The notes below the pieces were generated by a model that was given only the letters and a program-made list of their open reading frames with translations, was not told where the DNA came from and did not search any database. A DNA stretch of 64,000 nucleotides from Phytoactinopolyspora halotolerans. Its GTDB lineage: Bacteria; Actinomycetota; Actinomycetes; Jiangellales; Jiangellaceae. Within the stretch, counting starts at the first letter, position 1. The number at the start of each line of letters is the position of its first letter. Shown piece by piece: positions 3,885-18,931 of the stretch. The stretch spans positions 1 through 64,000 of the forward strand of contig NZ_JAAGOA010000022.1 of the NCBI RefSeq assembly GCF_010550675.1, given 5' to 3'. The position numbers were made by a program, and so were the translations under genes.

Positions 3885-4056
3885 GGTGCCCTCCCCACAT
3901 CGGAGCGATCCGTGCGCTGGCTTGGCCAAGACCTAGCGTTTCCGCCCGCCATACTCGTCGTGAGTCTCAGCAACGTCAAGATGTCCGTTCTGTCTCGTTC
4001 GCATCTATACGGTGGTACCTCGCGCGGGCGCACCGTCATGCTCGCGGAGAGCGCGC

Positions 4057-5050: not shown

Positions 5051-7294
5051 TCACGGCGACTCCGCATATGCCCGGATCTCGATGATCTCCGCCCGCGGGA
5101 TGCCCCATGTGGTCTCTACCACCACCCGGATGGCGCTGGTGCGGACAACCTCTCCGAGCCGGTGGATCCGGTGACGCCTGCGGTTGGCGCGCACCCTCGC
5201 GATGACCTTCCACGCGCCGTCGCCGCCGCACGCCTCGAGACGGTAGTCGCGGACCAGCTGTGGCGGCGCGCGGAACTCCGTGCGGTGGTGGTGCAGATTG
5301 ATGAGATCCTCGTTCACATCGTCGTTGAACGTCAGTCTGATCTCGGCGATGTCGGCCTCGTCATCGAAGGACAACTGCAGCCATTGCTCGGCGTAGGGAA
5401 GCATCGGCCCGGATGCCCACAGATTCGGTCCACCGTACGGCCGCGTGTATCCGTTGAGCGCTTTGCCCGCGGCATATGCGTCGGTCGCACCCTCGACGGC
5501 AACAGCCAAACACATCCGCTGCGACGCAAGTGGCCTCCACTCCAGCACCGGTTGCGGCCGGTCGGCGGGACGACGGAGCGGCTGCCGGGTGAAGCTCAGC
5601 ACGCCGTACGGCGCCGTCGTGCCGGCGTGCAATGTGACGTCCGGGTTGGCGCGGACGACGACGAAGACGTTCCGCGGATCCGAATCAGGGACCGCTACCG
5701 GCACGGCCACACGTTGATCGTTTCCGCGTTCGACCGGAACCTCCACCGCGCCCATGAGCGTCGCCGGGACGTAGTTCTGCGGCTGACCCGTCTCATAGAC
5801 CTCGACATTCAGCTGCGAATCCGCGTCTGCGTCCAGCACGATGCTCAGCCCGGCGAACCCCGGATCCGCCGGGATCACCACCCCGGCATCGGAGTGGAGT
5901 CGGTGCCGGAGCTCACCCGGGTCGACCTCGATCGAGGTGAGCGTGCTGGATGCTGTCACCGTCGCCGAACGTGCCAGATCCGCTTCATCGGTGTTCCGAA
6001 TGCCTAGCACCGATCCGTCCTGCCTCAGCAACGTCTGCTGCAGGAGCGTCGTGTGCGACCGGCCGAGTTCGCGCGGGGAGAATGCACGGTCGGCGCAGAG
6101 CGCCGCGGCAGTACCGGTCGCTTCCCCAACCGTCGCGCAGGTAGCCATCACCCGCGTGGTGCCGAATGCCACATGGCTGGCCGAGATGTCCCTTCCGGCG
6201 AACATCAGATTCTCCACGTTCACCGAGTACAGGCACCGGTACGGAATGTGATAGCTGCCATCGATGTGCAGGTGCTTCGAGCCGGAATCGGCCGCGTACA
6301 TTCCCTCGGGTGGATGTAAATCGATCGACCATCCGCCGAAGGCTACTCGGTCATCGAAGAGCTCCTGGTCGAGCACCTCGTTCTGGGTGAGCATGTGATC
6401 CCCGACAAACCGCCGATATTCACGCTTTCCAGGAATGGAACCGACCCATTCCAAAGTCATGGTGTCGGCATCGAATTTGCCCGAGTTCTTAATGTAGTCC
6501 CAGATGCCGTAGATGACGGACCATAGCTCGTCACGTATGCGTTCGTTCTCGTGCACGGTGTCGAGTTCCCCGCCCCACTCGATCCACCAGTACGCGCAGC
6601 CGTTGTCACCGGATCGGATCACCCGCTTCTCCGGGATGGACGTCTGTGTGATGTCCTTGGCGAACGACGGCGGGACGTACTCGACGTTCTCACCGGCATC
6701 CTTCGTGTAGAACAGCAGGGTGCTGCCGAGCGTAATATCGTCGGCCACCTCCGGCGCCCACTCTTCCCCGAATTCGTGGCGTGCCTCGCGGCCGATCCGA
6801 TACTGCGCACCTGCGAGATAGCCGACCAGTCCGTCCCCCGTGCAATCCAAGAAAATCGGGCTCTCGAATCGCGTCGACAATTCGGAGCCCATGGTCCAGC
6901 CGCTCACCGACTCGATCCGTCGACGGCCCCGAGGTCCGGTCGCACTGACCTCACGCACATCGGTATTCAGAAACAGGCTGATATTCGACTCCGCCCGTAC
7001 CGTGTCAAGGATCAGCGCATCCCACAGATATGGATTGCCTTCTGGGTTGCGGTACTGGTTCTCAACGAACAGCTCACCCATGATTCCGCCCTCCCGGGCG
7101 AACCTGTGCACGCCATGTGCCGTCGCTCCCACCACCCACACCCGTACTTCGCTGGACGAGTTGCCACCCAGGACCGGACGGTTCGTGATCAAACACACGC
7201 GCCTGCCGAGCCGCGCTGCGGCCACTGCCGCGCAGACGCCGGCCAAGCCGCCACCGACGACCGTGACGTCGGAATGTACCCGTTGTTCCCGCAC
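5051..7294 (-). CDS. FAD-dependent oxidoreductase with C-terminal discoidin-like domain
   Basis: This 747-aa protein opens with a Rossmann FAD-binding motif (DVTVVGGGLAGVCAAVAAA, about residues 8-26) and continues as a PF12831-type oxidoreductase (LGGNSSSEVRV, DCTGDG, NLMFAGRDIS). The last 170 residues form a beta-rich, discoidin/F5-8-like module with a W-x-QLSFDD strand, a usual carbohydrate-contacting fold. There is no signal peptide. I chose GTG 7294 because GGAG lies 8-11 bases upstream; the frame stays open to 7390 but would run through the LacI promoter. Relatives are common in plant-polysaccharide loci, yet the substrate is undefined. Shared control with the glycosidase and importer units suggests a step in oxidising an imported sugar. 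Confidence 0.8.
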   Translation of the reverse strand: MREQRVHSDVTVVGGGLAGVCAAVAAARLGRRVCLITNRPVLGGNSSSEVRVWVVGATAHGVHRFAREGGIMGELFVENQYRNPEGNPYLWDALILDTVRAESNISLFLNTDVREVSATGPRGRRRIESVSGWTMGSELSTRFESPIFLDCTGDGLVGYLAGAQYRIGREARHEFGEEWAPEVADDITLGSTLLFYTKDAGENVEYVPPSFAKDITQTSIPEKRVIRSGDNGCAYWWIEWGGELDTVHENERIRDELWSVIYGIWDYIKNSGKFDADTMTLEWVGSIPGKREYRRFVGDHMLTQNEVLDQELFDDRVAFGGWSIDLHPPEGMYAADSGSKHLHIDGSYHIPYRCLYSVNVENLMFAGRDISASHVAFGTTRVMATCATVGEATGTAAALCADRAFSPRELGRSHTTLLQQTLLRQDGSVLGIRNTDEADLARSATVTASSTLTSIEVDPGELRHRLHSDAGVVIPADPGFAGLSIVLDADADSQLNVEVYETGQPQNYVPATLMGAVEVPVERGNDQRVAVPVAVPDSDPRNVFVVVRANPDVTLHAGTTAPYGVLSFTRQPLRRPADRPQPVLEWRPLASQRMCLAVAVEGATDAYAAGKALNGYTRPYGGPNLWASGPMLPYAEQWLQLSFDDEADIAEIRLTFNDDVNEDLINLHHHRTEFRAPPQLVRDYRLEACGGDGAWKVIARVRANRRRHRIHRLGEVVRTSAIRVVVETTWGIPRAEIIEIRAYAESP

Positions 7295-7360
7295 GACTTC
7301 CGCTCCATCTCGCCCGAGTCTCGTGACCGCCGGTCCGTTCAGCCAGCGGGTGTCAGCGCA

Positions 7361-7390
7361 AGTCTGCCCACAGCTGTTAGCACACGTCAA
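7361..7390 (-). promoter_or_regulatory. LacI-controlled promoter of the FAD oxidoreductase
   Basis: On the minus strand there is TTGACG (7385-7390), an 18-bp spacer and CAGACT (7361-7366). The spacer contains TGCTAACAGCTGT, matching the half-site word found at the two other LacI promoters of this locus. The predicted transcript starts near 7354, about 60 bases ahead of the GTG start. Binding by one or both neighbouring LacI proteins is inferred from the shared word. Confidence 0.65.
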
Positions 7391-7436
7391 GGGGCCGATG
7401 TGTGGGCGCTCGTACCGCTCTCGACCCCTAGACGAG

Positions 7437-8486
7437 TCAGTCCGGCACGCCAGCCGAGGATTGGCGGACGACGAGTTCGGTCGGCAGCTCCACGGAGCCG
7501 ACTCCGTCTCGTTCGCCGTTCATCTGCCCGACGAGCATCGTCACGGCACGCACCCCTACCTCGTGTAACGGCCATCGCACGCTGGTGAGCGGCGGCGTCA
7601 GATACGCACACATGGGGAAGTCGCCGAACCCCACCAACGCGATGTCATCGGGAATCCGCCGGCCGGACTCGTGGATGGCATGCATCGCACCCACCGCCAT
7701 CCAGTCGTTACCCGCATGCACCGCGGTGGCATCGGGCCAACGGTCGAGCGCTTCCATCGTCGCCCGGTACCCATGCTGGGAACTCCAGGTCCATGGCCCG
7801 GGATCGATGTGCCGTGGTGGCGACAACCCGCGGGAGGTGAATTCGTCGGCGAACGCACGCAGCCTGGGGAGCGGCTCGCCTCCTCCAGTCGCGCCCGCCA
7901 CCATCACCACCTCGGTACGTCCGCCGTCGATCAAGTGTCTCGCAGCTTCGCGCAGCCCACCGCACTCATCCGTGCTGATGCTCCCTACCTGATCCAGCGG
8001 GAGATCGCCGGCCTGCACGCCCAGGCCGATGTGCACAACGGGCGTCCGCCAATCAGCCAGCTCGCGCGCCAGCCAGTCCAGGTTATGCACCACGACGCCG
8101 TCCACCTGAGCATCTCGCAGGACGCCGAACACGTCGTAGGACTGCGATTCCAAGACCGGTGGCAGGAACTTCACCGTATGCTGGCGTCGTGTCGCCCCTT
8201 CGACCGCCCCCACCATGACGTCCTCGAAGATGGGCAGCCGCAGTTTGGACGGCGGGTGCGTAGTGACGACGCCGACGGTCAGGTGTCGCTGCCCCACCAT
8301 CGCGCGCGCCGCGGAGTTCGGCACATATCGCAGCGTGGCGGCGGCGTCGCGGATCCGCTCCTGGATTTCCTTCGACAGCCGTAACTCGTCGCCCCGGCCA
8401 TTCAGCACGAGCGAAACAGCGCTCGGCGACACACCAGCCAGTTTGGCGACATCCGCTCTCGACACGGCACGAGCTCGAGTAGGCAC
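7437..8486 (-). CDS. LacI family repressor, copy 1
   Basis: This 349-aa LacI/GalR regulator has an N-terminal helix-turn-helix (DVAKLAGVSPSAVSLVLNG, residues 12-30), the hinge helix YVPNSAARAMVG and a periplasmic-binding-protein-like sugar sensor ending in the ELVVRQSS strand. It closely resembles the second LacI at 12,946-14,049, for instance RRIPDD(I/V)A(L/V)VGFGDFP, so the pair arose by duplication. The start is GTG 8486 with GAAGGAG about 10 bases upstream. It is divergent from the lectin-glycosidase pair. A perfect 16-bp palindrome in the shared intergenic region (8550-8565) is the probable operator, implying autoregulation. Confidence 0.93.
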   Translation of the reverse strand: MPTRARAVSRADVAKLAGVSPSAVSLVLNGRGDELRLSKEIQERIRDAAATLRYVPNSAARAMVGQRHLTVGVVTTHPPSKLRLPIFEDVMVGAVEGATRRQHTVKFLPPVLESQSYDVFGVLRDAQVDGVVVHNLDWLARELADWRTPVVHIGLGVQAGDLPLDQVGSISTDECGGLREAARHLIDGGRTEVVMVAGATGGGEPLPRLRAFADEFTSRGLSPPRHIDPGPWTWSSQHGYRATMEALDRWPDATAVHAGNDWMAVGAMHAIHESGRRIPDDIALVGFGDFPMCAYLTPPLTSVRWPLHEVGVRAVTMLVGQMNGERDGVGSVELPTELVVRQSSAGVPD

Positions 8487-8514
8487 GGCCCCGCAACTCC
8501 TTCATGAGCAACCC

Positions 8515-8565
8515 TTGACGGATGTTAGCAGGGACCTGCACACTGCAAGGCTAACAGCTGTTAGC
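8515..8565 (+). promoter_or_regulatory. LacI-controlled promoter with perfect palindromic operator
   Basis: TTGACG (8515-8520), 18-bp spacer and CACACT (8539-8544) form a promoter for the lectin-glycosidase gene at 8646. The spacer carries TGTTAGCA (8523-8530). Just downstream lies the perfect palindrome GCTAACAGCTGTTAGC (8550-8565). Two operator words suggest cooperative repression by a LacI dimer of dimers. The same layout recurs at 14,141-14,190 and on the minus strand at 7,361-7,390. Confidence 0.75.
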
Positions 8566-8645
8566 ACGCGTGATCGATCCTCATCCGGAACCGCTGGTTT
8601 CACTACGCGCTCCTCGCGCTTACACCGAGGGAAGGGATTATTCGT

Positions 8646-10952
8646 ATGGCGACATTGAGGCTGCCGGCGAGGCGACCCGGGCGAACTCCGACTCATCGGA
8701 GCGCCGCCGTGCTCGCTCTGGCCACGGTGCTGATGGTCTGCTTCACGCAACTCACCGCGGTCGTATCGTCCCCGACGGCGTCGGCGCAGACGACCTACTT
8801 CAACGACGACTTCGAGGCGGGTGATGCCACACGGTGGACTCCCCTGGACGGCTCGTGGTCGGTCGTCGACGATGGTGCCGGGGGCAAGGTCTACCAGCAG
8901 GGCGAGAGCCGGCCGGATCAGGCCTCGTATGCGGTCGCCGGTGACGGCGGCTGGGGCGACTACAACCTGGCCGCCGAGATCACACCGGGCGATCTCGGCG
9001 CCGGCGCGGCCGGCTTGATCGCCCGTTACCAGGACGGATCCAACTACTACGCCGCGAGGGTGAGCGATGACCAGCTCGAACTGACGAAGACCGTCGACGG
9101 GGTCCAGAGCACGCTGGAGAGCGCACCGATCGACCTCGTCGACGCGCCCGGCCTTCTCCTCGAGATCGAGGTCCGCTCCGACTACGTCAAGGTGTACGTC
9201 AACCACAACCTCGTCGTATCGAGTCAGGACTCCGCGCTGGACGCCGGCCGCGTCGGGCTCGGCACGTGGAACGCCGCAGCCGCTTTCGACGACGTCCGGG
9301 TCTCCAAGCCGATCGAGCTCGGCGTGATGCGCGCCAACCTGCAGTGGTACGAGCGGTACTTCGTGGACACCTTCCAGAACAACATGAACCGGTGGACGCG
9401 GATCGGTGACTGGGAGCTCGTCCCGCGGGAGATCGAGAACGGCCAAGACGACAACAACGTCGTCGAGGCGAGCGAGAACGAGGACGGCCGAGACCCGCTC
9501 GCTTGGTCCGCCTGGGACAGCTCGATACGGACGGACACCACAACGCGGGTGACGGTCATCCCGGTCGAGGAACTGGACGGCGACAAGCGCGCATCGGTGA
9601 TGTTCCGCCTGGTCAACAGATGGAACTACTACGCCGTGCACATCAACTCGACGACCGTCACGCTGGAGAGAAAGGTGAGCAACGCCTCTGAGGTCATCGC
9701 CGAGGCGCCCCTTCCCGAGGACGTCGAGATCGAGCCGGGGACTCCTCTGTACGTCGACATCGACGCCTACGGCCCGGACATCGACGTCTACCTGGACCAT
9801 ACTGCTGTCCTGTCGGCCAGTGACTCGACATTCACCGAAGGCCGGGTGGGTCTCGGCACCCGTGGAACGAACGTGCATTTCGACGACGTCGAGACGCACG
9901 ACAAGTTCGACCAGTTCGCGCTGCTCGACGAGATGAAAGACAACGGGATGAACCGCGCGCGACTGACCTACACGCGGTACAAGTACCTGCGGCTGGTCAG
10001 CGAGTGGGTCAAGCACGCGAACGAGATCGACCTGGACGTCTTGATGAGCTTCTCGTTCACCGGCGATCCGCAGTACTACCCCAAGGGAACGGAGAAGGTC
10101 TTCGGCTCGATCGCATGGGGCGCCTACCGCCTCTCCGACATCGACCCGCATCGCTTCGCCCGGGCATACCGCACGTTCCTGAAGCAGTTCCGCGACTCCG
10201 GGGCGCAGCTCACCGAAGTCGGCTTCGGCAACGAGATGAACTGGTTCGGCTTCAACGGCGACCTGCGGGAGGTCGACGGACCCAAGATCTTCGACCTGGA
10301 CACCGATATCTCGGATCCGGAGTTCGCCCAGGTCCGCGAAGGCATCGAGAAGTATGGTCAGCTGCTCGCGCAGGCGCGGCACGTGACCGACTCGGTCAAC
10401 CGGATCGGCGACGTGCAACTGGTCTCCGGCGGCGTCAACCATCCCGACACCGCCGGCATCATGGAGAACGGCCGGGTACACGTGCGGCCGGAACTCTTCC
10501 TGACGTTGCTGCAGGGCACCCACCGGGATCAGCCCGCGAACGCTCCGGACTACCTGTCGGCGATGGACCAGATCGGCGTCCACCTGTATCCGTTCCAGAA
10601 CGGTGGCCGGTCGTACGACACTAATCCGGACACCGCCTACGCGACCACCGTGGAATTCGTCACCGAGATCATGGATCCGATCATCGCCGCCATCGGGTCG
10701 GACTACACGTTCCTGATCGCCGAAGCCGGCGCCTACCGTCGAGACGCGATCACCCTGCAGGGCGAGCAGATCACCGAGGAGCAGCGGCTCGAGCTGTACC
10801 GGACCTTCGTCCGAGCTTTGCAGGATCCGGCGCTCTCGGACGTGAACTTCGGCACCATCATGATGTACTCCTTCGACGACGGCCCCTGGGCCGCCTACGA
10901 CGACGGCAAGCTGCTCCCCGTCGGCGAGGTCTTCGCCGAGTACCCGTACTGA
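8646..10952 (+). CDS. Secreted double-lectin putative glycosidase, unassigned family
   Basis: This is a 768-aa exported protein. A signal peptide ends near residue 48 (SPTASAQ). Two concanavalin-like beta-sandwich modules follow (about 50-220, from YFNDDFEAGD, and 235-415, from FVDTFQNNMNRW), each closing with GRVGLGT. Residues 420-768 look like a TIM-barrel glycosidase of clan GH-A. A GNE triplet (VGFGNEMNW, Glu530) sits where the acid/base would be, and Glu693 (LIAEAG) where the nucleophile would be. I cannot place it in a named GH family. ATG 8646 is preceded by GAAGGGA. It is paralogous to the next gene, with GFNGDL, LLQGTH and a GEVF-x-x-YPY end in common. The adjacent LacI operator implies induction by its glycan product. 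Confidence 0.75.
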   Translation: MATLRLPARRPGRTPTHRSAAVLALATVLMVCFTQLTAVVSSPTASAQTTYFNDDFEAGDATRWTPLDGSWSVVDDGAGGKVYQQGESRPDQASYAVAGDGGWGDYNLAAEITPGDLGAGAAGLIARYQDGSNYYAARVSDDQLELTKTVDGVQSTLESAPIDLVDAPGLLLEIEVRSDYVKVYVNHNLVVSSQDSALDAGRVGLGTWNAAAAFDDVRVSKPIELGVMRANLQWYERYFVDTFQNNMNRWTRIGDWELVPREIENGQDDNNVVEASENEDGRDPLAWSAWDSSIRTDTTTRVTVIPVEELDGDKRASVMFRLVNRWNYYAVHINSTTVTLERKVSNASEVIAEAPLPEDVEIEPGTPLYVDIDAYGPDIDVYLDHTAVLSASDSTFTEGRVGLGTRGTNVHFDDVETHDKFDQFALLDEMKDNGMNRARLTYTRYKYLRLVSEWVKHANEIDLDVLMSFSFTGDPQYYPKGTEKVFGSIAWGAYRLSDIDPHRFARAYRTFLKQFRDSGAQLTEVGFGNEMNWFGFNGDLREVDGPKIFDLDTDISDPEFAQVREGIEKYGQLLAQARHVTDSVNRIGDVQLVSGGVNHPDTAGIMENGRVHVRPELFLTLLQGTHRDQPANAPDYLSAMDQIGVHLYPFQNGGRSYDTNPDTAYATTVEFVTEIMDPIIAAIGSDYTFLIAEAGAYRRDAITLQGEQITEEQRLELYRTFVRALQDPALSDVNFGTIMMYSFDDGPWAAYDDGKLLPVGEVFAEYPY

Positions 10953-11076
10953 TCACGCGAGGCATCGTCCTCATCGCTTCACCTGCGGGCCGGGACGCCG
11001 GATCTGCCCCCTGGCTCCCGGCCCGCATGCATCACCGGATCCACCTACGACGACGTAGAGCGGAAGGCAGCAGCAC

Positions 11077-12903
11077 ATGCGCGACATCATCACTTCGAGG
11101 AGAACGTTTGTCCTGATCATCACGATGGCCGTCACCGTCATCGGTCTCTATCCCGTTCCCACCGAGACCGCGCACGCGCAGACGGCGATCTTCGCCGATG
11201 ATTTCGATGACGGCGACGACGGCTGGGCCCCGGTGGAAGGACACTGGCGGGTCGTCAGCGACGCATCTGGGAATCCGGTGTATGAGCAGGCGGCCACCGG
11301 CTCAGGCGTCCCCGGCGTCAGCTTGATCGACCTCCCGCCTTGGCAACCCTTTCATGTGAAGGTGCAGGTCACGCCGACCGACATTCAGCCCGGGGACGCG
11401 GTCCGGGTGTTCTTCCGGTACGAGGACCAGGACAACCATTACCTCGTCTTCCTCTCAGAGTCCTCGGTACAGCTGAGACGCCGGGTGAACGGGAGCCTGA
11501 CGACCATCCAGGAAGCGCCGGTCAATATCGAGAACGGGATCTCTTACCAGATCGACGTCGAAGGCAGAGGCAACCATTTCACCGTCCACGTCGACCATGC
11601 CCAGAAGCTGTCTGCCTACGACCCGTACGGCAGACCCGGCTCCGTGCTCGCGGAGGGCAAGATCGGGCTGGGGACCTGGCAGACCGGCGCGCAGTTCGAC
11701 AACGTCAGGGTCGCCAACGTCGTGCGCATGGGCGTCGCGCAGAGCCACCTGAGCCGGTGGGGCCAGCGGAGCGTCGAGTCGCAACAGCACGTCCTCGATG
11801 CCATGGACACCGCCGGGATCAACCGCGTCCGCCTCGCGCTCCCCCGTCCCGGCCGGCTCAGCGACGTCACGGAACAGGTGTGCCATGCGAAAGACAACGA
11901 CATGAAGGTCAGCCTCCTGCTCGGGCTGAGCACAAACGAGGACTACTACCCGGACGGCACAACCAAGGCCCAGCGGACGAACTTCGACCCTGTCTACCGG
12001 CTTTCCGATCTGGATCCGGCGAAGTTCGAGAAGGCGCTCTACACCACGGATACAGATAAGGCGGGCAACGAGATAGACGGCTATCTGGAAGTGCTCGACA
12101 ATGCCGGTTGCGTGCCGGACGCGCTCGTCATCGGAAACGAGCTCAACTGGATCGGCTTCAATGGGGATCTTCCAGAGGTGACGAGCGATCAACCAGGCGT
12201 TCCAGACGGCAAGATCTTCGACCACGACACCCCATGGGGCGACGCCGGCTATGAACAGATCCGCACCGGCATCGACAAGTGGGGGCAGGCGATCTCTCGC
12301 GCCAGGGAGGCGGCCGACGCCGCCTTCGGGCAGGACAAAGTCAAGATCGTCACCGGCGGCTTCGCCGACATTCCGCACGGCCACGTTCGGGACAGGGCCG
12401 GAAGCTACATGGCGCCGCAACTGTTCGTGCAGCTTCTTCAGGGCACCCACCCGAACCAGTCGGGCAGGCCCGACCACATCTCCGACGCCGACTTCATCGG
12501 CACGCACATCTATCCGTACCGGCCCTATGACCTCGACCCGGAAAGAGGGTATGACACGATCCGGGATCACATCGCCGACGTGATGGACCCCGTCGTCGAC
12601 AAGATCGGCGCACCGAAGCCCTTCTGGATCGGCGAGTTCGGGTTCCGCAACAGGCACAGGATCGACGGGGTCTTCGAGACAGTCACCGAGCCGGAGCGCC
12701 TGCAGCTGTTCCGCTGGTTCATGCTGGCGCTGTACGACGAGAAGCTCGCCGACATCGACTGGCGCGAGGTATACGTATACAACTTCACCGACAACGACCT
12801 CCTCAGCATCTATGAGTGCGAGACGACGCCCGAGGACGAGTACGTCTGCGAGACGGGCACTCTGCTGGACCCCGGTGAGGTATTCCGGGATTACCCCTAC
12901 TGA
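11077..12903 (+). CDS. Secreted lectin-domain putative glycosidase, paralogue
   Basis: This 608-aa exported protein is related to the preceding one but has a single lectin module. A signal peptide (TMAVTVIGLYP, cleavage near TAHAQ) leads into a concanavalin-like domain (35-205, DDFDDGDDGW to GKIGLGTW). The barrel then carries VIGNELNWIGFNGDL (Glu355, predicted acid/base) and FWIGEFGFR (Glu520, predicted nucleophile). GAAGG precedes the ATG. The 124-bp gap from the first gene has no clear promoter, so an operon is likely. Catalysis is inferred from the two conserved glutamates and the barrel pattern. A polysaccharide lyase-like or purely binding role cannot be excluded. Confidence 0.75.
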   Translation: MRDIITSRRTFVLIITMAVTVIGLYPVPTETAHAQTAIFADDFDDGDDGWAPVEGHWRVVSDASGNPVYEQAATGSGVPGVSLIDLPPWQPFHVKVQVTPTDIQPGDAVRVFFRYEDQDNHYLVFLSESSVQLRRRVNGSLTTIQEAPVNIENGISYQIDVEGRGNHFTVHVDHAQKLSAYDPYGRPGSVLAEGKIGLGTWQTGAQFDNVRVANVVRMGVAQSHLSRWGQRSVESQQHVLDAMDTAGINRVRLALPRPGRLSDVTEQVCHAKDNDMKVSLLLGLSTNEDYYPDGTTKAQRTNFDPVYRLSDLDPAKFEKALYTTDTDKAGNEIDGYLEVLDNAGCVPDALVIGNELNWIGFNGDLPEVTSDQPGVPDGKIFDHDTPWGDAGYEQIRTGIDKWGQAISRAREAADAAFGQDKVKIVTGGFADIPHGHVRDRAGSYMAPQLFVQLLQGTHPNQSGRPDHISDADFIGTHIYPYRPYDLDPERGYDTIRDHIADVMDPVVDKIGAPKPFWIGEFGFRNRHRIDGVFETVTEPERLQLFRWFMLALYDEKLADIDWREVYVYNFTDNDLLSIYECETTPEDEYVCETGTLLDPGEVFRDYPY

Positions 12904-12924
12904 CCGACTACTCCCACCACGTCG

Positions 12925-12998
12925 GCGACCTCGATACCGCGAGACTCAATCCGAAACCTGTTCCGGCTCCACGGTGCGTCTCGCGGTATCGAGGTCGC
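12925..12998. repeat. Perfect 21-bp inverted repeat overlapping the LacI-2 stop
   Basis: The arms 12925-12945 and 12978-12998 are perfectly complementary over 21 bp and separated by 32 nt. The right arm encodes the residues DLDTARR near the LacI-2 C terminus. The LacI-2 stop (12946-12948) is at the foot of the left arm, and the plus-strand glycosidase gene ends 21 bp before the left arm. The element can act as a two-way terminator for the convergent genes. There is no U tract. Confidence 0.7.
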
Positions 12999-14049
12999 GT
13001 CTATGTTCGGCATATCCAGTCGAACCACGGACCACCAGTTCGGTCGGCAGGACCACAGCACCGAGACCGGCGGGTTCGTCCTCGAGCTGTGCCAGCAACA
13101 TCTCCACGGCTTTGACGCCCAGATCGCGGAGCGGCCACGTCACCGTGGTCAACGGCGGGTTCAGAAAGGCGCTCACCGGGAAATCGCCGAATCCCACGAC
13201 CGCGACATCGTCGGGGATCCGGCGACCGGTCTCCACCAGCGCACGCATGGCACCGATCGCCATCCAGTCGGTGCCGGCCTGCATCGCCGTGATGTCCGGG
13301 TGAGCGTCGATCAGTTCCCTGGTCGCGCGGTAACCGTCCTCTGGAGACCACGTCCAGAATCCGGGGTCGATGTAGTGCGAGACGCCCGCGTTGCACTGCG
13401 CGAACTCGTCGATGAACGCCTGCAGACGGCCGACCGGAGGCCCCTGCGGGCGGACGGCACCGCCCACCACACCCACAGCCCGGTGCCCGTCATCCGCGAG
13501 ATATCGCGCGGCGGAGCGCATCCCGCCCTGCTCGTCGGTCGTCACCACTCCGATCCGGTCTACCGGGAGTTCGTCGTGTTCCTCCCCCGGCCCCGCGTAG
13601 ACGACCGGCATGCGCCAGTCGGCGACGGCCTGCGCCAGCCACCCCAGGTTGTGCACCACGATGCCGTCCACGTGTGCATCGCGGAGCACGCCGTAGACGT
13701 CGTAGGAGTCCGGATCGGTCACCGGCGGCAGTATCTTCACCGTGTGTTGGCGACGCGCCGCCTCCTCGACGGCGCCGACCGCGAAGTACTCGAAGATCGG
13801 CAGATGCAGGGTGTTCGGCGGCTGCCGGGTCACCACGCCGACCGTGAGATGCCGTTTGCCGACCATCGCGCGGGCCGCGGAGTTCGGCACGTATCGCAAC
13901 CGCATCGCCGCGTCGCGGACCCGCTCCTGTGTCTCCTTCGAGACTCGCTTCTCGTCCGCACGGCCGTTGAGCACGAGCGAGACCGTGGTGGGCGAGACAC
14001 CAGCCGCGCTGGCGACATCTGCCCGCGAAACGCCTTGACCTCGTGCCAC
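12946..14049 (-). CDS. LacI family repressor, copy 2
   Basis: This 367-aa LacI/GalR regulator has helix-turn-helix DVASAAGVSPTTVSLVLNG (residues 11-29), hinge YVPNSAARAMVG, then a sugar-sensor domain very similar to copy 1 (TDWMAIGAMRALVETGRRIP; WPLRDLGVKAVEML). The C terminus extends about 18 residues beyond copy 1 and is encoded partly by the inverted repeat. GTG 14049 follows GAGGAGTGG. It is divergent from the importer-sulfatase operon, whose promoter carries TGCTAACA and TGTTAGCA words. Because both repressors face similar operators, they may cross-regulate or answer to different inducers. Confidence 0.93.
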   Translation of the reverse strand: MARGQGVSRADVASAAGVSPTTVSLVLNGRADEKRVSKETQERVRDAAMRLRYVPNSAARAMVGKRHLTVGVVTRQPPNTLHLPIFEYFAVGAVEEAARRQHTVKILPPVTDPDSYDVYGVLRDAHVDGIVVHNLGWLAQAVADWRMPVVYAGPGEEHDELPVDRIGVVTTDEQGGMRSAARYLADDGHRAVGVVGGAVRPQGPPVGRLQAFIDEFAQCNAGVSHYIDPGFWTWSPEDGYRATRELIDAHPDITAMQAGTDWMAIGAMRALVETGRRIPDDVAVVGFGDFPVSAFLNPPLTTVTWPLRDLGVKAVEMLLAQLEDEPAGLGAVVLPTELVVRGSTGYAEHRRDLDTARRTVEPEQVSD

Positions 14050-14140
14050 GACCTACCACTCCTCGCAACTCACCTTACGTGCGGCCGCCCGCGTGGAACG
14101 CGGCGGACCACCGCCGACCGTCCTTTGCCTGTCATGAACC

Positions 14141-14190
14141 TTGACACATGCTAACAGGAGTTGGCACACTCGTGCTCACTGCTGTTAGCA
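14141..14190 (+). promoter_or_regulatory. LacI-controlled promoter of the importer-sulfatase operon
   Basis: TTGACA (14141-14146), an 18-bp spacer and CACACT (14165-14170) form the promoter. An imperfect palindrome starting TGCTAACA (14149-14166) fills the spacer, and a second half-site TGTTAGCA lies at 14183-14190. The element spacing is identical to the promoter at 8515. A roughly 75-base leader precedes the ATG at 14252. Confidence 0.72.
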
Positions 14191-14251
14191 AGGATCGACG
14201 CGCTCCACCACAGACACCGAAGTCAAGCCCCAACGCATCCGTGGAGACACC

Positions 14252-15592
14252 ATGACCACAACCCATCGTTCGTCCCGAGCAGAATTCGCGGCCGACACGA
14301 CGCTGAGCCGGCGCCGCTTTCTGCGCGCCAGCGCTGCCGCCGGTCTCTCCGTCCCAGCCATGGGCATGCTCAGCGCCTGCGGGGAGGACAGCGACGACGG
14401 CCCCAGCGCGGGCGGGTCAGGTGGCTCGTCGTCGACGCTGCGCGTCATCCACCTACCGTGGATGGAGAACGTCGCGCCGTGGCTTCCGGACCTGGGCACG
14501 CAGTTCGAGGAGAACAACACCGGCGTGAGCGTCGACGTCTCCCCGCTGGCCTCCGCCGAAGGCAACCCGCAGGCGCTGATCCAGAAGTTCACCCTGGAGT
14601 CCCGCAAGGACGAACCGTCGTTCGACGTACTCCTCGGTCCGACGCCGTTCAGCCTCGCGGCACCGCTCGCCAAGGCGGAAGTGATCGCACCGATCGGAGA
14701 TCTGATCCCCGACGACATCTTGTCCCGGATGCCTGACTCCATTCTCAGCGAGGTGACGGGACCGGACGGCAACATCTGGTGCTTCCCGTTCTGGCAGGAC
14801 GTCATGGGCTTCCTCTACAACAAGACGTTGATGAGCGAGGTCGGCCTGGACCAGCCGCCGGCGACGTGGGAGGAGTTGCACGCCCAGGCCCAGTCGATCG
14901 CACCGGAGCTTCCCAAGGACACGTACGCCTACGGTGCGGACTGGAACTGGGTGACCCGGATGTTCCTGCCGATGCTGGTCACCATGACCGACACGCCGTA
15001 CGCGGAGAACGGCACCCCGAACGTCGCCGACCCAGCCGCGCTCGAGGCTCTGCGGATGCTCAAGGACCTGGGACAGGCCAGCCCGCCCAACTCCACCACG
15101 GAGCTCGCCTCGGCCGAGGTGTTCCAGGCCGGCAAGGTCGTGATGGAGACCTACTGGCAGCCCCAGTACCTCCGCGCCCAGGAGGCAGGCCTCGGCGAAG
15201 ACGAACTCGGTTTCAGCGGCAACCTCGGTGGTCAGCGCAACAGCACCGTGTTCTGGTCCACCGTCGCGCTGATCCCGGCCAACAGCAAGAACGCCGAGCT
15301 CGCGGTCAAGTTCGTCACCGACGGCTTCCTGAGCGACGACGGTATCCAGCAATCGATCGAGGACGCCGGCCGCTTCTTGCCGCTGAACGACATCGAAGAC
15401 AGGTTCCCCGACTGGATGAAGCCGTTGTACCAGCAGATGCTCGAAGGTTCCCCGCTCCCCCTGAACGACTCGTTCGTGACCGTGGTCAAGGACACGTTCC
15501 AGACCGAGGCGGAGCGGATGGTCATCGAGGACCAGTCGCCCGAGGACACCCAGCAGAAGCTGATCGACGCGTTCTCGGCATACGCATGGTGA
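14252..15592 (+). CDS. Tat-exported lipoprotein sugar-binding protein
   Basis: This 446-aa ABC importer binding protein is of the carbohydrate family 1 type. The N terminus combines a twin-arginine motif (SRRRFLR, residues 19-25) with a lipobox LSAC (Cys43), so it is folded before export and then anchored to the outer membrane face. The mature part shows the usual family pattern of a domain-closing YNKTLMSEVGL segment and PPATWEE. It captures an oligosaccharide for the two permeases that follow, and its stop overlaps the next start. The adjacent glycosidases and sulfatase suggest a decorated oligosaccharide as ligand. Confidence 0.92.
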   Translation: MTTTHRSSRAEFAADTTLSRRRFLRASAAAGLSVPAMGMLSACGEDSDDGPSAGGSGGSSSTLRVIHLPWMENVAPWLPDLGTQFEENNTGVSVDVSPLASAEGNPQALIQKFTLESRKDEPSFDVLLGPTPFSLAAPLAKAEVIAPIGDLIPDDILSRMPDSILSEVTGPDGNIWCFPFWQDVMGFLYNKTLMSEVGLDQPPATWEELHAQAQSIAPELPKDTYAYGADWNWVTRMFLPMLVTMTDTPYAENGTPNVADPAALEALRMLKDLGQASPPNSTTELASAEVFQAGKVVMETYWQPQYLRAQEAGLGEDELGFSGNLGGQRNSTVFWSTVALIPANSKNAELAVKFVTDGFLSDDGIQQSIEDAGRFLPLNDIEDRFPDWMKPLYQQMLEGSPLPLNDSFVTVVKDTFQTEAERMVIEDQSPEDTQQKLIDAFSAYAW

Positions 15593-16545
15593 TGGACACG
15601 GCAACGACGACGCCCGGCGGCGCGATGAAACCCGTGACGACGACGTCCGGCGCGAGAAAACCCGACGCCGGGAGGAGGTTCAAGCGGGCTCTCACCGGCT
15701 ACCTCTTCGTGGCGCCGGTGGTGGTCCTCATGGGCGTCTTCGTCTTCTACCCGCTGGCACAGACGGTCTACCTGACGTTCTTCGACTATTCCTTCCTGGC
15801 CGACACCCAGGAGTTCGTCGGCGTCGACAACTACGTCGAGTGGGCCCAGGATCCGATGACCTGGCAGACCCTCTGGGTGTCGGTGAAGTTCTTCCTCTAC
15901 TACGTTCTGGGCTCGATGGTGCCTGGGCTGGTGATCGCCATCATGATCGACCGGCTGGCCACCACATACGCGCCGTCGGTGTACCGGACGATCTTCTACT
16001 TCCCCGTCGTGTTGCCGGCAGCGATCGTGTTCTCGATGTGGCTGTGGATCTACGATCCGACGCTCGGGATGTTCGCCCACTTGAGCGATACCGTGGGCGC
16101 GGACAGCTCGCCGAACTGGCTGGGCGATCCGGACCTGGCGCTACCGTCGCTCGCGATCATGAACAGCTGGCGGTTCCTCGGCGAGACCGTGATCTTCTTC
16201 CTGATCGGTCTGGCGGCGATCCCGCGCGACTATGTCGAGGCCGCGCGGACGGACGGGGCCGGCGAGGTGAAGATCGTCGTCCGGATCATCATTCCGCTGC
16301 TCATGCCGTTCATCTTCCTCGTCTTCGTGCTCCGGCTGCGTGCCCTGGAGTTGGTCACCGAGCCGCTGTTCATGACCCAGGGCGGGCCGGTGGATGCCAC
16401 CCGAACCTACGGCCTTGAAGCCTACGAGCTGTTCCACAACCAGGACCGGATCGGGTACGCCGACACGTGGTTCGTCCTGCTGGCAGTGATCTCTTTGGTG
16501 ACCGCCGGGTTCGCAAGCCGACGTCTACGGAGTTACCAGACATGA
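15592..16545 (+). CDS. Carbohydrate ABC importer permease (MalF type)
   Basis: This 317-aa inner-membrane permease has six predicted helices beginning GYLFVAPVVVLMGVFVFYP. The EAA loop is EAARTDGAGEVKIVVRIIIP (about residues 220-240), the docking site for the transport ATPase. ATG 15592 overlaps the binding-protein stop (TGATG), a sign of translational coupling. ATG 15586 and ATG 15626 are alternative starts; the frame is open far upstream but only as an out-of-frame shadow of the binding-protein gene. It pairs with the next permease. No ATPase gene follows in this operon. Confidence 0.9.
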   Translation: MDTATTTPGGAMKPVTTTSGARKPDAGRRFKRALTGYLFVAPVVVLMGVFVFYPLAQTVYLTFFDYSFLADTQEFVGVDNYVEWAQDPMTWQTLWVSVKFFLYYVLGSMVPGLVIAIMIDRLATTYAPSVYRTIFYFPVVLPAAIVFSMWLWIYDPTLGMFAHLSDTVGADSSPNWLGDPDLALPSLAIMNSWRFLGETVIFFLIGLAAIPRDYVEAARTDGAGEVKIVVRIIIPLLMPFIFLVFVLRLRALELVTEPLFMTQGGPVDATRTYGLEAYELFHNQDRIGYADTWFVLLAVISLVTAGFASRRLRSYQT

Positions 16546-17420
16546 CCGCCACGCCCACCATGACCAGACCGGGGCCGAACGTGGCGCGCGCGCAGTCGCG
16601 ACGCCGCAACCGGCAGCCCGTCGAACACACCACGCTCATCGTCCTGACCGCGTTCCTGCTCGCCCCGTTCGCCTGGTTCGTCTCGGTCGCGTTCCGGCCG
16701 AAGGACCAGCTGTACCAGTTGCTGCCCAGTTCCCTGACGCTAAGCAACTTCACCGAGATGGTCGACCGGGTGCCGGACATGGTCGCCTACTACACGGATA
16801 GCATCATCATCACGTTCAGCGCCGTCGTCATCATCGCCGTCGGATCCGCGCTCGCCGGGTTCGCGTTCGCCCGGCTGAGCTTTCCCGGTCGCGACGTTCT
16901 GCTCTGGATGATCGTGGCCACGATCTTCATCCCGCATCCCACCGTGGTGGCCTCGCTGTGGGTGCAGCTGTTCGAGATGGAACTGCTCGACACCCGGCTG
17001 GGGTTGACCCTGGTGTACGCCGCCTGGGGCTTCGCGATCGGCACGTTCATCATGCGCAACGTGTTCAAGCAGATCCCGATCGAACTGGAGCAGTCCGCCC
17101 GGGTCGACGGCGCGTCCAGCTGGCAGATCCTCTGGCGGATCTACATCCCGCTGGCGATGGGCGGCATGGTGGTCGTTTCGATGTTGTCGTTCGTGCACAT
17201 CTGGGGTGAGTATCTGTTCGCCTTCACCTTCGCCGGCGAGAACGTGATCCCGATGTCCCTCGGCATCCAGTTCTTCCAGCCCAGCGGCTCGGACCCGACG
17301 TACACGTTCAACGTCGCCGCGGCCGCGGGTCTGGTGATGTTCGTCCCGTCGCTCGTCATCTACATCGGCTTCCAGCGCTGGTTCAGCCGCGGAACGATGG
17401 AAGGAGCGCTCAAAGGGTGA
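16542..17420 (+). CDS. Carbohydrate ABC importer permease (MalG type)
   Basis: This 292-aa permease partners the preceding one. Helices start at TTLIVLTAFLLAPFAWFVSV, and the EAA loop reads EQSARVDGASSWQILWRIYIP. ATG 16542 overlaps the upstream TGA as ATGA, with GGAG 10 bases before. An ATG 75 bp earlier is in frame but lies inside the previous gene. The sulfatase start is only a few bases beyond its stop, so all four genes belong to one message. The transport ATPase must come from elsewhere, perhaps a shared MsiK-like subunit such as the one at 42,063. Confidence 0.9.
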   Translation: MTATPTMTRPGPNVARAQSRRRNRQPVEHTTLIVLTAFLLAPFAWFVSVAFRPKDQLYQLLPSSLTLSNFTEMVDRVPDMVAYYTDSIIITFSAVVIIAVGSALAGFAFARLSFPGRDVLLWMIVATIFIPHPTVVASLWVQLFEMELLDTRLGLTLVYAAWGFAIGTFIMRNVFKQIPIELEQSARVDGASSWQILWRIYIPLAMGGMVVVSMLSFVHIWGEYLFAFTFAGENVIPMSLGIQFFQPSGSDPTYTFNVAAAAGLVMFVPSLVIYIGFQRWFSRGTMEGALKG

Positions 17421-17422
17421 GC

Positions 17423-18931
17423 ATGAAACGACCGAACATCCTCCTGATCACCACCGACCAGCAGCACTGGAACACGATCGGAGCGTTCAACCCGGAGCTG
17501 CGCACGCCTAGTCTCGACCGGCTCGTCGCCGAAGGCACCACCTTCAGCCGGGCCTATTGTCCCAATCCGACCTGTACGCCCACCCGGGCGTCGATCATCA
17601 CAGGCAAATATCCCAGCCAGCATGGCGCATGGACGCTGGGTACCAAGCTCCCGGAGTCCGAGACCACGATCGGCCAACTGCTCGCCGATGGCGGTTACCG
17701 CTCCGGCCTCATCGGAAAGGCGCATTTCCAGCCTTTGCACAGCACCGCCGAATACCGTTCCGTCGAGTCATACCCGACGCTTCAAGATCTCGATTTCTGG
17801 CGCAAGTTCCACGGCCTGTACTACGGGTTCGATCATGTCGAGATGCTTCGCAACCACGTCAACGAGGCGCACGTGGGGCAGCACTACGCGCTGTGGCTCG
17901 AGGAACAAGGGGCCACCGACTGGCGCCGCTACTTCTCGCCGCCTACTGGGACCATGGACAAGCCCGATGGATTCCGCTGGGACATCCCCGAGGAGCTGCA
18001 TTACAACACCTGGCTGGCCGAGCGTGCGTCGTCGTTCATCGCCGACTCCGTCCGCGACGACCAGCCGTTCTTCTGCTGGGCGAGTTTTCCCGATCCGCAT
18101 CCGCCCTATCTGGTGCCGGAACCATGGGCCTCGATGTATCACCCGGACGACCTGACCATCCCTGAACCGGTCCCCGGTGAGCACGACCGGAACCCGCCGC
18201 ACTTCGGCCTGACGCAGCAGGACGATCCGGACTTCGCCGATTGGCACGAGTCCGGATTCGCCGTCCACGGTCTGCGCTCGCACCGGCTGGGCGACGACGA
18301 ACGACGACGGCTGGTCGCGGCCTACTACGGCATGGTGAGCTTCACCGACGCGTACATCGGCGCCATCCTGGACGAGCTCGACCGCCGCGGCGTGGCCGAC
18401 AACACGATCGTCGTGTTCTCCACCGACCACGGCCACTTCTTCGGACAGCATGGGCTGCAGCACAAGGGTCCCTTCATGTACGAGGACATGGTCCGGGTGC
18501 CGATGCTCGTCCGCTACCCCGGAAAGGTACCCGCGGGCCGGGTATCGCCCGCCATCCAGTCGCTGGTAGACCTCGCCCCGACCTTCCTCGACCTTGCCGG
18601 ATTCGACACACCGGCGACGATGACCGGCGTCAACCAGAGCGATACCTGGCTGGGCCGTCGCGACGCCGTCCGCGACCATGCGATCTGCGAGCACCACCAT
18701 GAGCCGACGAGGGTGAACCTGCGCACCTACATCAGCGAGCGGTACAAGCTCACCGTCTATTACCGCCAGACCTACGGCGAGCTGTTCGACCTGGAGGCGG
18801 ACCCGGGCGAGTTGCACAACCTCTGGGACGATCCGGACCACGCCGATCTGAAATCGCGCCTGCTGCTCGAGTACGCCTGGGCAGAGCTGGGCAAGGAACC
18901 GATGTGGATGCCGCGGATCGCCAGCGCGTGA
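17423..18931 (+). CDS. Formylglycine-dependent sulfatase, cytoplasmic
   Basis: This 502-aa type I sulfatase hydrolyses sulfate esters. The N terminus NILLITTDQQ supplies the calcium-binding aspartate, and CTPTRAS (Cys51) is the consensus that is oxidised to formylglycine. FSTDHGHFFGQHG at about residue 335 supplies further metal ligands, and the GELFDLEADPGE segment is typical of the C-terminal subdomain. There is no signal peptide, so it should act on imported substrate. ATG 17423 has AAAGGG six bases upstream; GTG 17417 overlapping the permease stop is the alternative. Linkage to the importer strongly suggests that the imported glycan fragment is sulfated. Some relatives cleave phosphonates or phosphodiesters. 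Confidence 0.88.
   Translation: MKRPNILLITTDQQHWNTIGAFNPELRTPSLDRLVAEGTTFSRAYCPNPTCTPTRASIITGKYPSQHGAWTLGTKLPESETTIGQLLADGGYRSGLIGKAHFQPLHSTAEYRSVESYPTLQDLDFWRKFHGLYYGFDHVEMLRNHVNEAHVGQHYALWLEEQGATDWRRYFSPPTGTMDKPDGFRWDIPEELHYNTWLAERASSFIADSVRDDQPFFCWASFPDPHPPYLVPEPWASMYHPDDLTIPEPVPGEHDRNPPHFGLTQQDDPDFADWHESGFAVHGLRSHRLGDDERRRLVAAYYGMVSFTDAYIGAILDELDRRGVADNTIVVFSTDHGHFFGQHGLQHKGPFMYEDMVRVPMLVRYPGKVPAGRVSPAIQSLVDLAPTFLDLAGFDTPATMTGVNQSDTWLGRRDAVRDHAICEHHHEPTRVNLRTYISERYKLTVYYRQTYGELFDLEADPGELHNLWDDPDHADLKSRLLLEYAWAELGKEPMWMPRIASA

Follow-up and report, generated by a model that had tools for sequence, protein, structure and literature searches.

A stretch of 64,000 nt from Phytoactinopolyspora halotolerans (the window; the whole genome comprises 7.3 Mb in 65 contigs) carries at positions 5051–18931 a locus built around two secreted proteins, named here PA and PB. 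As best read from sequence comparison and a fold prediction for PB, their catalytic barrels form a family of clan GH-A glycoside hydrolases (GH) that has no name in Pfam, NCBIfam or the sequence data of PDB, and it is from these libraries only that the family is set apart. With about an even chance, the locus is a self-contained unit, repressed by LacI-type regulators, for the use of an anionic, galactose-rich glycan, with retaining hydrolysis as the candidate function of PA and PB. The genes are ordered as a flavin adenine dinucleotide (FAD) oxidoreductase and LacI 1 on the minus strand, PA and PB on the plus strand, LacI 2 on the minus strand, and a binding protein, two permeases and a sulfatase on the plus strand (Table 1). 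Every part named in an earlier note on this DNA was located where that note had placed it, by open reading frames and Pfam matches.

A clan GH-A barrel in PA and PB

The paralogy that had been proposed for both protein pairs holds, with 34% identity between PA and PB in an alignment of 524 columns (expectation value, E, 1e-82) and 63% between the two LacI regulators over 342 positions. The barrel of PB was modelled by AlphaFold2 with 37 aligned relatives, model residue 1 being PB residue 213. The prediction (predicted local distance difference test, pLDDT, 90.7; predicted template modelling score, pTM, 0.91) contains eight barrel strands. Strand 4 spans model residues 137–140 and E355 (model residue 143) lies just past its end, while strand 7 spans model residues 304–309 and E520 (model residue 308) lies inside it. 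Clan GH-A enzymes are (β/α)8 barrels with the catalytic glutamates at the ends of strands 4 and 7 and an asparagine before the acid/base, and this arrangement was found here, on the PB model only. The earlier note had predicted such a barrel with its two glutamates, and the model agrees; its residue numbering was also right, with E530 in GNE and E693 in AEAG of PA, and E355 in GNE and E520 in GEFG of PB. Residues R252, N354, E355, N357, D472, H477, Y479 and E520 (PB numbering) are invariant in all 93 aligned rows, which were chosen by the hidden Markov model (HMM) of the family and include a few genes twice.

Fold searches with the PB barrel pointed in the same direction. Foldseek gave 213 chains at E 0.001 or better, and the best 50 of them were headed by PslG (E 2.5e-9, template modelling (TM) score 0.51) and a GH53 galactanase (1.1e-8). 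The rest of these 50 rows were mostly GH1, GH5, GH30, GH35, GH53, GH113 and GH164, some of these names being the families to which we take the entries to belong; outside clan GH-A there were two sugar epimerase-type entries and a β-amylase. TM-scores among the 50 were about 0.4–0.55, with no one family prominent. In VIA-align, GH1 ranked first (Z 24.8, root-mean-square deviation 4.2, 308 aligned positions, 13% identity) and the best 50 rows were GH1 enzymes throughout, in a comparison where all 1000 chains had Z of at least 8 and which leaves room for other families. Judging from the model, there is little doubt that the PA and PB barrel is a GH-A hydrolase; the clan assignment is clear on this basis and that to a single GH family is not.

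The barrel had been left without a known family, and Pfam, NCBIfam and PDB sequence searches of PA and PB gave none either, the lectin part alone being matched. Profile scans were also run for 37 family members against Pfam (E 0.1 or better) and NCBIfam, the latter yielding nothing relevant for any of them. PF11790 (Glyco_hydro_cc, GH128) was touched by 25 of the 37, with a best score of 21.0 bits at a cut-off of 21 over profile positions 136–209 only. This partial match, right at the cut-off, does not settle membership in GH128, and that assignment was dropped. GH5 was rejected (PF00150 in 12/37 members, best E 5.6e-4 and 19.9 bits against a cut-off of 23.5), as was GH53 (PF07745 in one of the 37, E 0.012, below cut-off), whose fold is alike yet not decisive. 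No GH39 profile was found among the families matched by the 37 members, nor any GH1 match in Pfam despite the lead of GH1 in VIA-align, and both were discarded. Against PDB, the top match of the family profile was a de novo designed barrel (E 1.7e-6), and GH53 was matched at E 1.7e-4 as far as the NE motif.

Two of the closest known systems resemble the barrel family in fold. PslG of Pseudomonas aeruginosa (PDB 4zn2), the best Foldseek row, shows 13% identity to the PB barrel at a TM-score of about 0.5, and its profile match is only E 0.92. It is a hydrolase tied to an exopolysaccharide cluster, which parallels the alphaproteobacterial clade of the barrel family described below. The GH53 endo-β-1,4-galactanases have the GH-A fold in common with the barrel family, but are set apart from it by the single PF07745 match. 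Among the matches listed in the open-licence literature, no title or abstract opening describes the barrel family.

These partial likenesses bear on the alternative that the barrel is a divergent branch of a described GH-A family (GH53, GH39/PslG, GH5, GH128 or a newer one), with novelty limited to architecture. The weak profile matches to PF11790, PF00150 and PF07745, that of GH53 in PDB, and public annotation, which labels some relatives glycoside hydrolase, would all agree with it. However, no scanned member exceeds the relevant curated cut-off, NCBIfam is silent for the whole set, and the TM-scores favour no family; we regard this alternative as unlikely, and the separate family without a name in these libraries is preferred.

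The lectin part consists of three modules. The C-terminal module of Bacillus subtilis levanase (PDB 4azz, 4b1l, 4b1m), which we take to be CBM66, a carbohydrate-binding module (CBM), was matched in the PDB sequence search by the first module of PA (E 4e-11), the second module of PA (7.9e-6) and the module of PB (5e-5), so that all three are CBM66-like by sequence similarity. PA has about 180 extra residues relative to PB in their alignment, and the family HMM breaks PA in two, with model positions 22–45 on residues 215–238 and 45–368 on residues 421–768; the PA protein of Phytoactinopolyspora endophytica is split likewise. Therefore, the second lectin module sits in the barrel directly after strand 1, and it is in this nesting within the catalytic barrel that PA differs from the levanase. 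The concanavalin-like modules of the earlier note are present in this CBM66-like form; the nesting had gone undescribed. In Pfam, whole PA passed the PF06439 cut-off of 26.8 bits (31.3 bits) and PB did not (20.6). Taken singly, the first module of PA scored 25.6 bits and the nested module gave no PF06439 match, nor any Pfam family at E 0.001; an identity as 3-keto-disaccharide hydrolases was rejected since the modules singly stay below the cut-off.

The full-length PA model was poor, with a mean pLDDT of 65.7. The residue after the nucleophile candidate (PA 694, window 10725–10727) is Ala in PA of both species, Phe in PB and Trp in most relatives, and from this Ala the active site of PA may differ in shape from that of PB and the relatives.

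Operators and control of the locus

It is highly probable, from the operator-like sites and promoters, that the locus is under LacI control. Both regulators have a helix-turn-helix and a sugar-binding domain, as in the LacI/GalR family, and palindromes lie at three promoters. The perfect 16-bp palindrome GCTAACAGCTGTTAGC occurs at no more than three mismatches at four sites in the window, against 0.04 expected. At no more than two mismatches, the whole 7.3-Mb genome contains it only at 7366, 8550 and 14174, and the backward control gave none. The LacI governance asserted in the earlier note is upheld by this limitation to the locus, with binding of LacI as a prediction.

The sequence TTGAC(A/G)-N18-CACACT precedes PA and the binding-protein gene in both Phytoactinopolyspora species, and before LacI 1 and the additional sulfatase of P. 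endophytica the −10 is CACGCT. The operators are positioned within the promoter spacer or 3–5 bases past the −10. A 21-kb stretch of P. endophytica has four such sites, of which one precedes LacI 1 and the sulfatase, another PA, and the remaining two the binding protein. The common palindrome is centred on GC; a CG-centred LacI operator was rejected, as the intergenic stretches yielded none beyond a single weak palindrome in the PA/PB gap and non-recurring ones in P. endophytica. The confinement of operator-like sites to the locus, with matching promoters, suggests a regulon of its own under the control of a repressor.

The congener P. endophytica retains the FAD enzyme, both LacI regulators, PA, PB, the binding protein, both permeases and the sulfatase at 60–87% identity, in partly altered order, so the locus is not a chance assembly. 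There, LacI 1 adjoins an additional sulfatase, followed by the FAD gene.

Sugar importer operons controlled by LacI/GalR regulators are known in actinobacteria. The locus resembles them in its LacI regulators, palindromic operators, and binding protein with two permeases, no ATPase gene being seen within the importer operon; it is unlike them in having two close LacI paralogs, and a sulfatase and an FAD oxidoreductase on the same sites. The sulfatase is of type I (formylglycine), with PF00884, a CxPxR motif (CTPTR) and, elsewhere in the genome, a match to the formylglycine-generating enzyme family (FGE-sulfatase, E 1.2e-82).

Without substrate, one or both LacI proteins would sit on the operators of the GCTAACAGCTGTTAGC type, which are located inside three matching promoters or directly behind them, and silence the FAD enzyme, PA-PB and the importer–sulfatase operon. 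The secreted PA and PB would use their CBM66-like modules to hold the polymer while cleaving it by the double displacement typical of clan GH-A, with PA E530 or PB E355 as putative acid/base and PA E693 or PB E520 as putative nucleophile. The oligosaccharides would enter through the binding protein and the two permeases, energized by an ATPase presumably encoded elsewhere. In the cytoplasm, the sulfatase would strip sulfate and the FAD oxidoreductase perform some oxidation, and imported sugar would release LacI. By eye, PA and PB have signal peptides and the sulfatase and the FAD enzyme show none, a pattern that fits cutting outside, import, and desulfation and oxidation inside.

Table 1. Features of the locus and their positions in the window.
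Feature	Position	Strand	Evidence
FAD-dependent oxidoreductase (PF12831)	5051..7294	-	FAD_oxidored 310 bits, over cut-off; revised start GTG 7294
LacI-family regulator 1	7437..8486	-	Pfam LacI and Peripla_BP_3, over cut-off
PA, secreted, 768 aa: CBM66-like module and barrel containing a nested second CBM66-like module	8646..10952	+	Pfam, PDB search, PA/PB alignment; signal peptide by eye
PA N-terminal CBM66-like module, residues 56–219	8811..9302	+	PF06439 stretch; PDB levanase module
PA second CBM66-like module, about residues 239–420, between barrel strand 1 and helix 1	9360..9905	+	PDB levanase module; family HMM split at residues 238/421
PA barrel after insert, residues 421–768; candidates E530 (10233–10235), E693 (10722–10724)	9906..10949	+	Alignment, family HMM
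PB, secreted, 608 aa: CBM66-like module and barrel	11077..12903	+	Pfam, PDB search; signal peptide by eye
PB barrel, residues 213–608, predicted clan GH-A fold; candidates E355 (12139–12141), E520 (12634–12636)	11713..12900	+	AlphaFold2, fold searches, alignment
LacI-family regulator 2	12946..14049	-	Pfam LacI and Peripla_BP_3, over cut-off
ATP-binding cassette (ABC) importer solute-binding protein, twin-arginine translocation (TAT)-type signal	14252..15592	+	SBP_bac_1 73 bits, over cut-off; TIGR01409 17.9 bits (cut-off 16.7)
ABC importer permease 1	15586..16545	+	BPD_transp_1 49.4 bits, over cut-off; start ATG picked by eye
ABC importer permease 2	16542..17420	+	BPD_transp_1 61.7 bits, over cut-off; start ATG picked by eye
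Sulfatase, C-T-P-T-R motif, no signal peptide seen (by eye)	17417..18931	+	PF00884 181.7 bits, over cut-off; motif from translation
Operator candidate, 2 mismatches, before FAD gene	7366..7381	.	Motif scans of window and genome
Operator candidate GCTAACAGCTGTTAGC, perfect 16-bp palindrome, LacI 1/PA intergenic	8550..8565	.	Motif scans of window and genome
Operator candidate, 3 mismatches, LacI 2/binding-protein intergenic	14150..14165	.	Window scan
Operator candidate, 2 mismatches, LacI 2/binding-protein intergenic	14174..14189	.	Motif scans of window and genome
Promoter-like TTGACG-N18-CAGACT before FAD gene	7361..7390	-	By eye
Promoter-like TTGACG-N18-CACACT before PA	8515..8544	+	Sequence inspection
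Promoter-like TTGACA-N18-CACACT before binding-protein gene	14141..14170	+	Sequence inspection

Relatives of the barrel and the possible substrate

The barrel family is rare, yet it is found across five phyla and in two clades. Full-length matches were present in two of five genomes of the genus; at E 0.001 some match appeared in four of the five, the extra ones being partial (9e-7 to 3.5e-5) and taken for other GH-A enzymes. The family was found in 2 of 60 relatives, counting the genome of the window as one, and in a phylum sample of 396 genomes only in that genome. A tblastn search against plasmids gave 81 records with identities near 25%, most of them from Sinorhizobium. From a scan of genome contigs, loci were taken from 80 of 106 confirmed stretches (79 loci): P. 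endophytica, 73 alphaproteobacterial, and one each from Poribacteria, Gelidibacter, Pedobacter, Kiritimatiellales and Proteiniphilum. Sampling, in which each sample includes its starting genome, added the genomes G927 (1 of 387 in the phylum of Kiritimatiellales) and G1290 (1 of 101 in the family of Proteiniphilum), and no further member among 395 genomes of the Pedobacter phylum. In a midpoint-rooted tree of 60 rows, thinned from the 93 and with a few rows being the same gene twice, 17 rows including those of the window split from 43 alphaproteobacterial rows with support 95/91; long branches, flagged by the tree program, include those of Methylorubrum (L012) and of the node uniting PA with PB.

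Within the clade of PA and PB, most loci contain a sulfatase, an enzyme acting on galactan, or the FAD oxidoreductase known from the window. In Gelidibacter, a homolog of the FAD enzyme of the window (37% over 705 positions), the sole PF12831 gene found in that genome, stands beside the barrel, in a locus that also holds a sodium symporter, a pectate-lyase-like gene and a GH97. G927 has two barrels with the FAD enzyme (35% over 743), a sulfatase and a sugar transporter of the major facilitator superfamily, and in Kiritimatiellales a sulfatase (34%) adjoins the barrel. One barrel of Proteiniphilum (L030) occurs with a GH27 and with a GH43 close to solved exo-β-1,3-galactanases (7bys at 1.6e-53, best 6eug at 1.4e-122), and two more with GH43, a sulfatase and GH35. 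In G1290, two barrels lie amid four sulfatases identified with Pfam, together with a partial one that BLAST detected and with GH43, GH27, GH2, GLAA-B and lacto-N-biose phosphorylase-type genes. GH2 and DUF3863 are near the barrel of Pedobacter. A lacto-N-biose phosphorylase-type protein near a barrel (L124:1021-3969) has an N-terminal stretch that by eye resembles the PA lectin module.

Among the six other lineages, a sulfatase lies within 10 kb of the barrel in four (P 0.009 for at least four of six under random placement), and the probability of the FAD enzyme lying within the same distance in at least two of six is 0.010. Poribacteria is not among these six. The two proximity statistics are supportive, not strong.

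The alphaproteobacterial clade occurs in another setting. In a survey of 78 loci (L026–L103, 73 of them alphaproteobacterial), homologs of both pyruvyl transferases of Sinorhizobium meliloti were found in 72 of the 73, the nearest at most 232 bp from the barrel gene in each; the sole exception, L088, has its barrel gene at the contig start. None was found in the five loci from other groups, nor in the 17-kb stretch of Methylorubrum (L012) that was examined. On pSymB of S. meliloti, the family gene (L010:14890-15981), with a signal peptide, has two pyruvyl transferase genes on one side and rfbABCD-like genes on the other. Its product is a glycoside hydrolase of the exopolysaccharide (EPS) II cluster, with a barrel homologous to that of the window (25% identity over 373 columns, E 5e-20; in a profile comparison, a probability of 99.5 across 302 columns) in which both glutamates and the YRLSDLD, GNE-N and NGDL motifs are retained. 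Unlike PA and PB, it has 363 aa, no lectin module was seen, and it belongs to a biosynthesis cluster with pyruvyl transferases. ExpA7–A10 are the dTDP-sugar enzymes of this cluster in the available text of PMC1403797, so that the gene, which precedes the dTDP-sugar genes, should by its order be ExpA6/WgaF. Nothing relevant on wgaF was found among the matches listed for open-licence papers, and expA6 appears in one paper, without a stated function in the available portions.

As given in the accessible part of one review, EPS II is built of Glc and Gal with α-1,3 and β-1,3 bonds, every Gal being pyruvylated (PMC3233446). Its low-molecular-weight form is the symbiotically active one, and glycanases are named for EPS I (ExoK, ExsH) and none for EPS II, in the available sections of the reviews (PMC1403797, PMC8227245, PMC3233446). 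For these two reasons, the S. meliloti member is a candidate EPS II glycanase, though wgcA is described as critical for the low-molecular-weight form, and expression of wga, wge and wgd as needed for the high-molecular-weight form, in the part available of one of these reviews (PMC3233446).

Taken together, the neighbours of the relatives make us lean towards galactose-rich, often β-1,3-linked anionic polymers, sulfated in one clade and pyruvylated in EPS II. The bond cut by PA and PB would tentatively be a galactosyl bond with β-1,3 linkage, in a polymer resembling a sulfated galactan, a proposal drawn from those neighbours and somewhat short of an even chance. A wider reading is that a new GH-A family acts on anionic polymers of galactose by cleaving their β-1,3-galactosyl bonds. 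One clade would trim pyruvylated exopolysaccharide during synthesis, and might thereby contribute to the chain length of EPS II in S. meliloti; the other, represented in the locus by a barrel with a nested lectin module, would digest sulfated galactans with a dedicated FAD oxidoreductase. The statement on wgcA weighs against the trimming role and therefore lowers the probability of this two-clade scheme, which is possible and on balance doubtful. If it is right, an undescribed enzyme family connects the breakdown of glycans in several phyla to the making of exopolysaccharide by rhizobia. The actinobacterial locus would contribute a compact regulon marked out by its operators, and an enzyme whose barrel has incorporated a carbohydrate-binding module, and the cousins among rhizobial slime-polysaccharide genes would be concrete leads on what PA and PB cut.

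Several observations weigh against the proposed unit and its sulfated, galactose-rich substrate. By BLAST with the sulfatase of the window, none was found near the barrel in Gelidibacter and Pedobacter, two of the six lineages, and Gelidibacter has its GH97 and pectate-lyase-like genes instead of galactan enzymes. The 6.3-kb contig of Poribacteria shows no obvious glycan genes, the next gene being a nuclease, and four of the six lineages lack a PF12831 gene within 10 kb of the barrel. Short contigs make the random-placement test rough, and in the sulfatase-rich genomes (100 and 107 genes) a neighbouring sulfatase is expected about 0.4–0.5 of the time. In the 21-kb stretch of P. endophytica, no operator match was found close to the FAD gene. 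In addition, CBM66 is a levan-binding module, a misfit with galactan. The decorated, possibly sulfated polysaccharide of the earlier note is consistent with the several relatives that stand beside sulfatases or galactan enzymes, is not reflected in the others, and is as yet unproven.

The substrate might instead be a bacterial exopolysaccharide of the EPS II type, a pyruvylated or acetylated galactose polymer, in which case the locus would feed on the slime of neighbours, with the sulfatase a bystander or directed at a different sugar. The nearest large clade does lie in exopolysaccharide clusters, close to pyruvyl transferases, and EPS II has the β-1,3 bonds and pyruvylated galactose described in the available text of PMC3233446. 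However, the sulfatase belongs to the operator-controlled operon, another adjoins LacI 1 in P. endophytica, sulfatases are beside the barrel in three further lineages and in G1290, and the locus shows no recognisable enzyme for the removal of pyruvate, which makes this substrate decidedly unlikely. Levan or another fructan as target is very improbable: all three lectin modules match the levanase module, but we know of no fructan enzyme in clan GH-A, the sulfatase and the neighbour genes of the relatives suggest other substrates, and the scanned locus proteins include neither a GH32 nor a GH68. The sulfated, galactose-rich glycan is thus preferred.

Adjoining genes and minor observations

The GH3 (1821–3929) and GH16 (969–1793) genes lie on the minus strand upstream of the locus, the GH3 being secreted and the GH16 without an obvious signal peptide. 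They were rejected as members of the unit, with no operator-like site nearby at up to three mismatches. In P. endophytica, a homolog of the GH3 (80%) is likewise located upstream of the locus, and the GH16 had no BLAST match at E 1e-8 among the compared loci, P. endophytica included.

Automatic calling places the start of the FAD gene at TTG 7390, the first base of the −35-like box TTGACG (7385–7390), which would lengthen the protein by 32 residues; GTG 7294 agrees better with the P. endophytica protein. Among the matches listed in an open-licence literature search on PF12831, nothing bore on this enzyme.

Whole-genome sulfatase matches number 26 in the genome of the window and 41 in P. endophytica, which is many for actinobacteria. 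The family gene of N. galegae VafX2 (L015:2872-4017) is apparently split into several reading-frame pieces, and the megaplasmid of Methylorubrum extorquens AM1 (L012:7899-9005) carries a very divergent family member.

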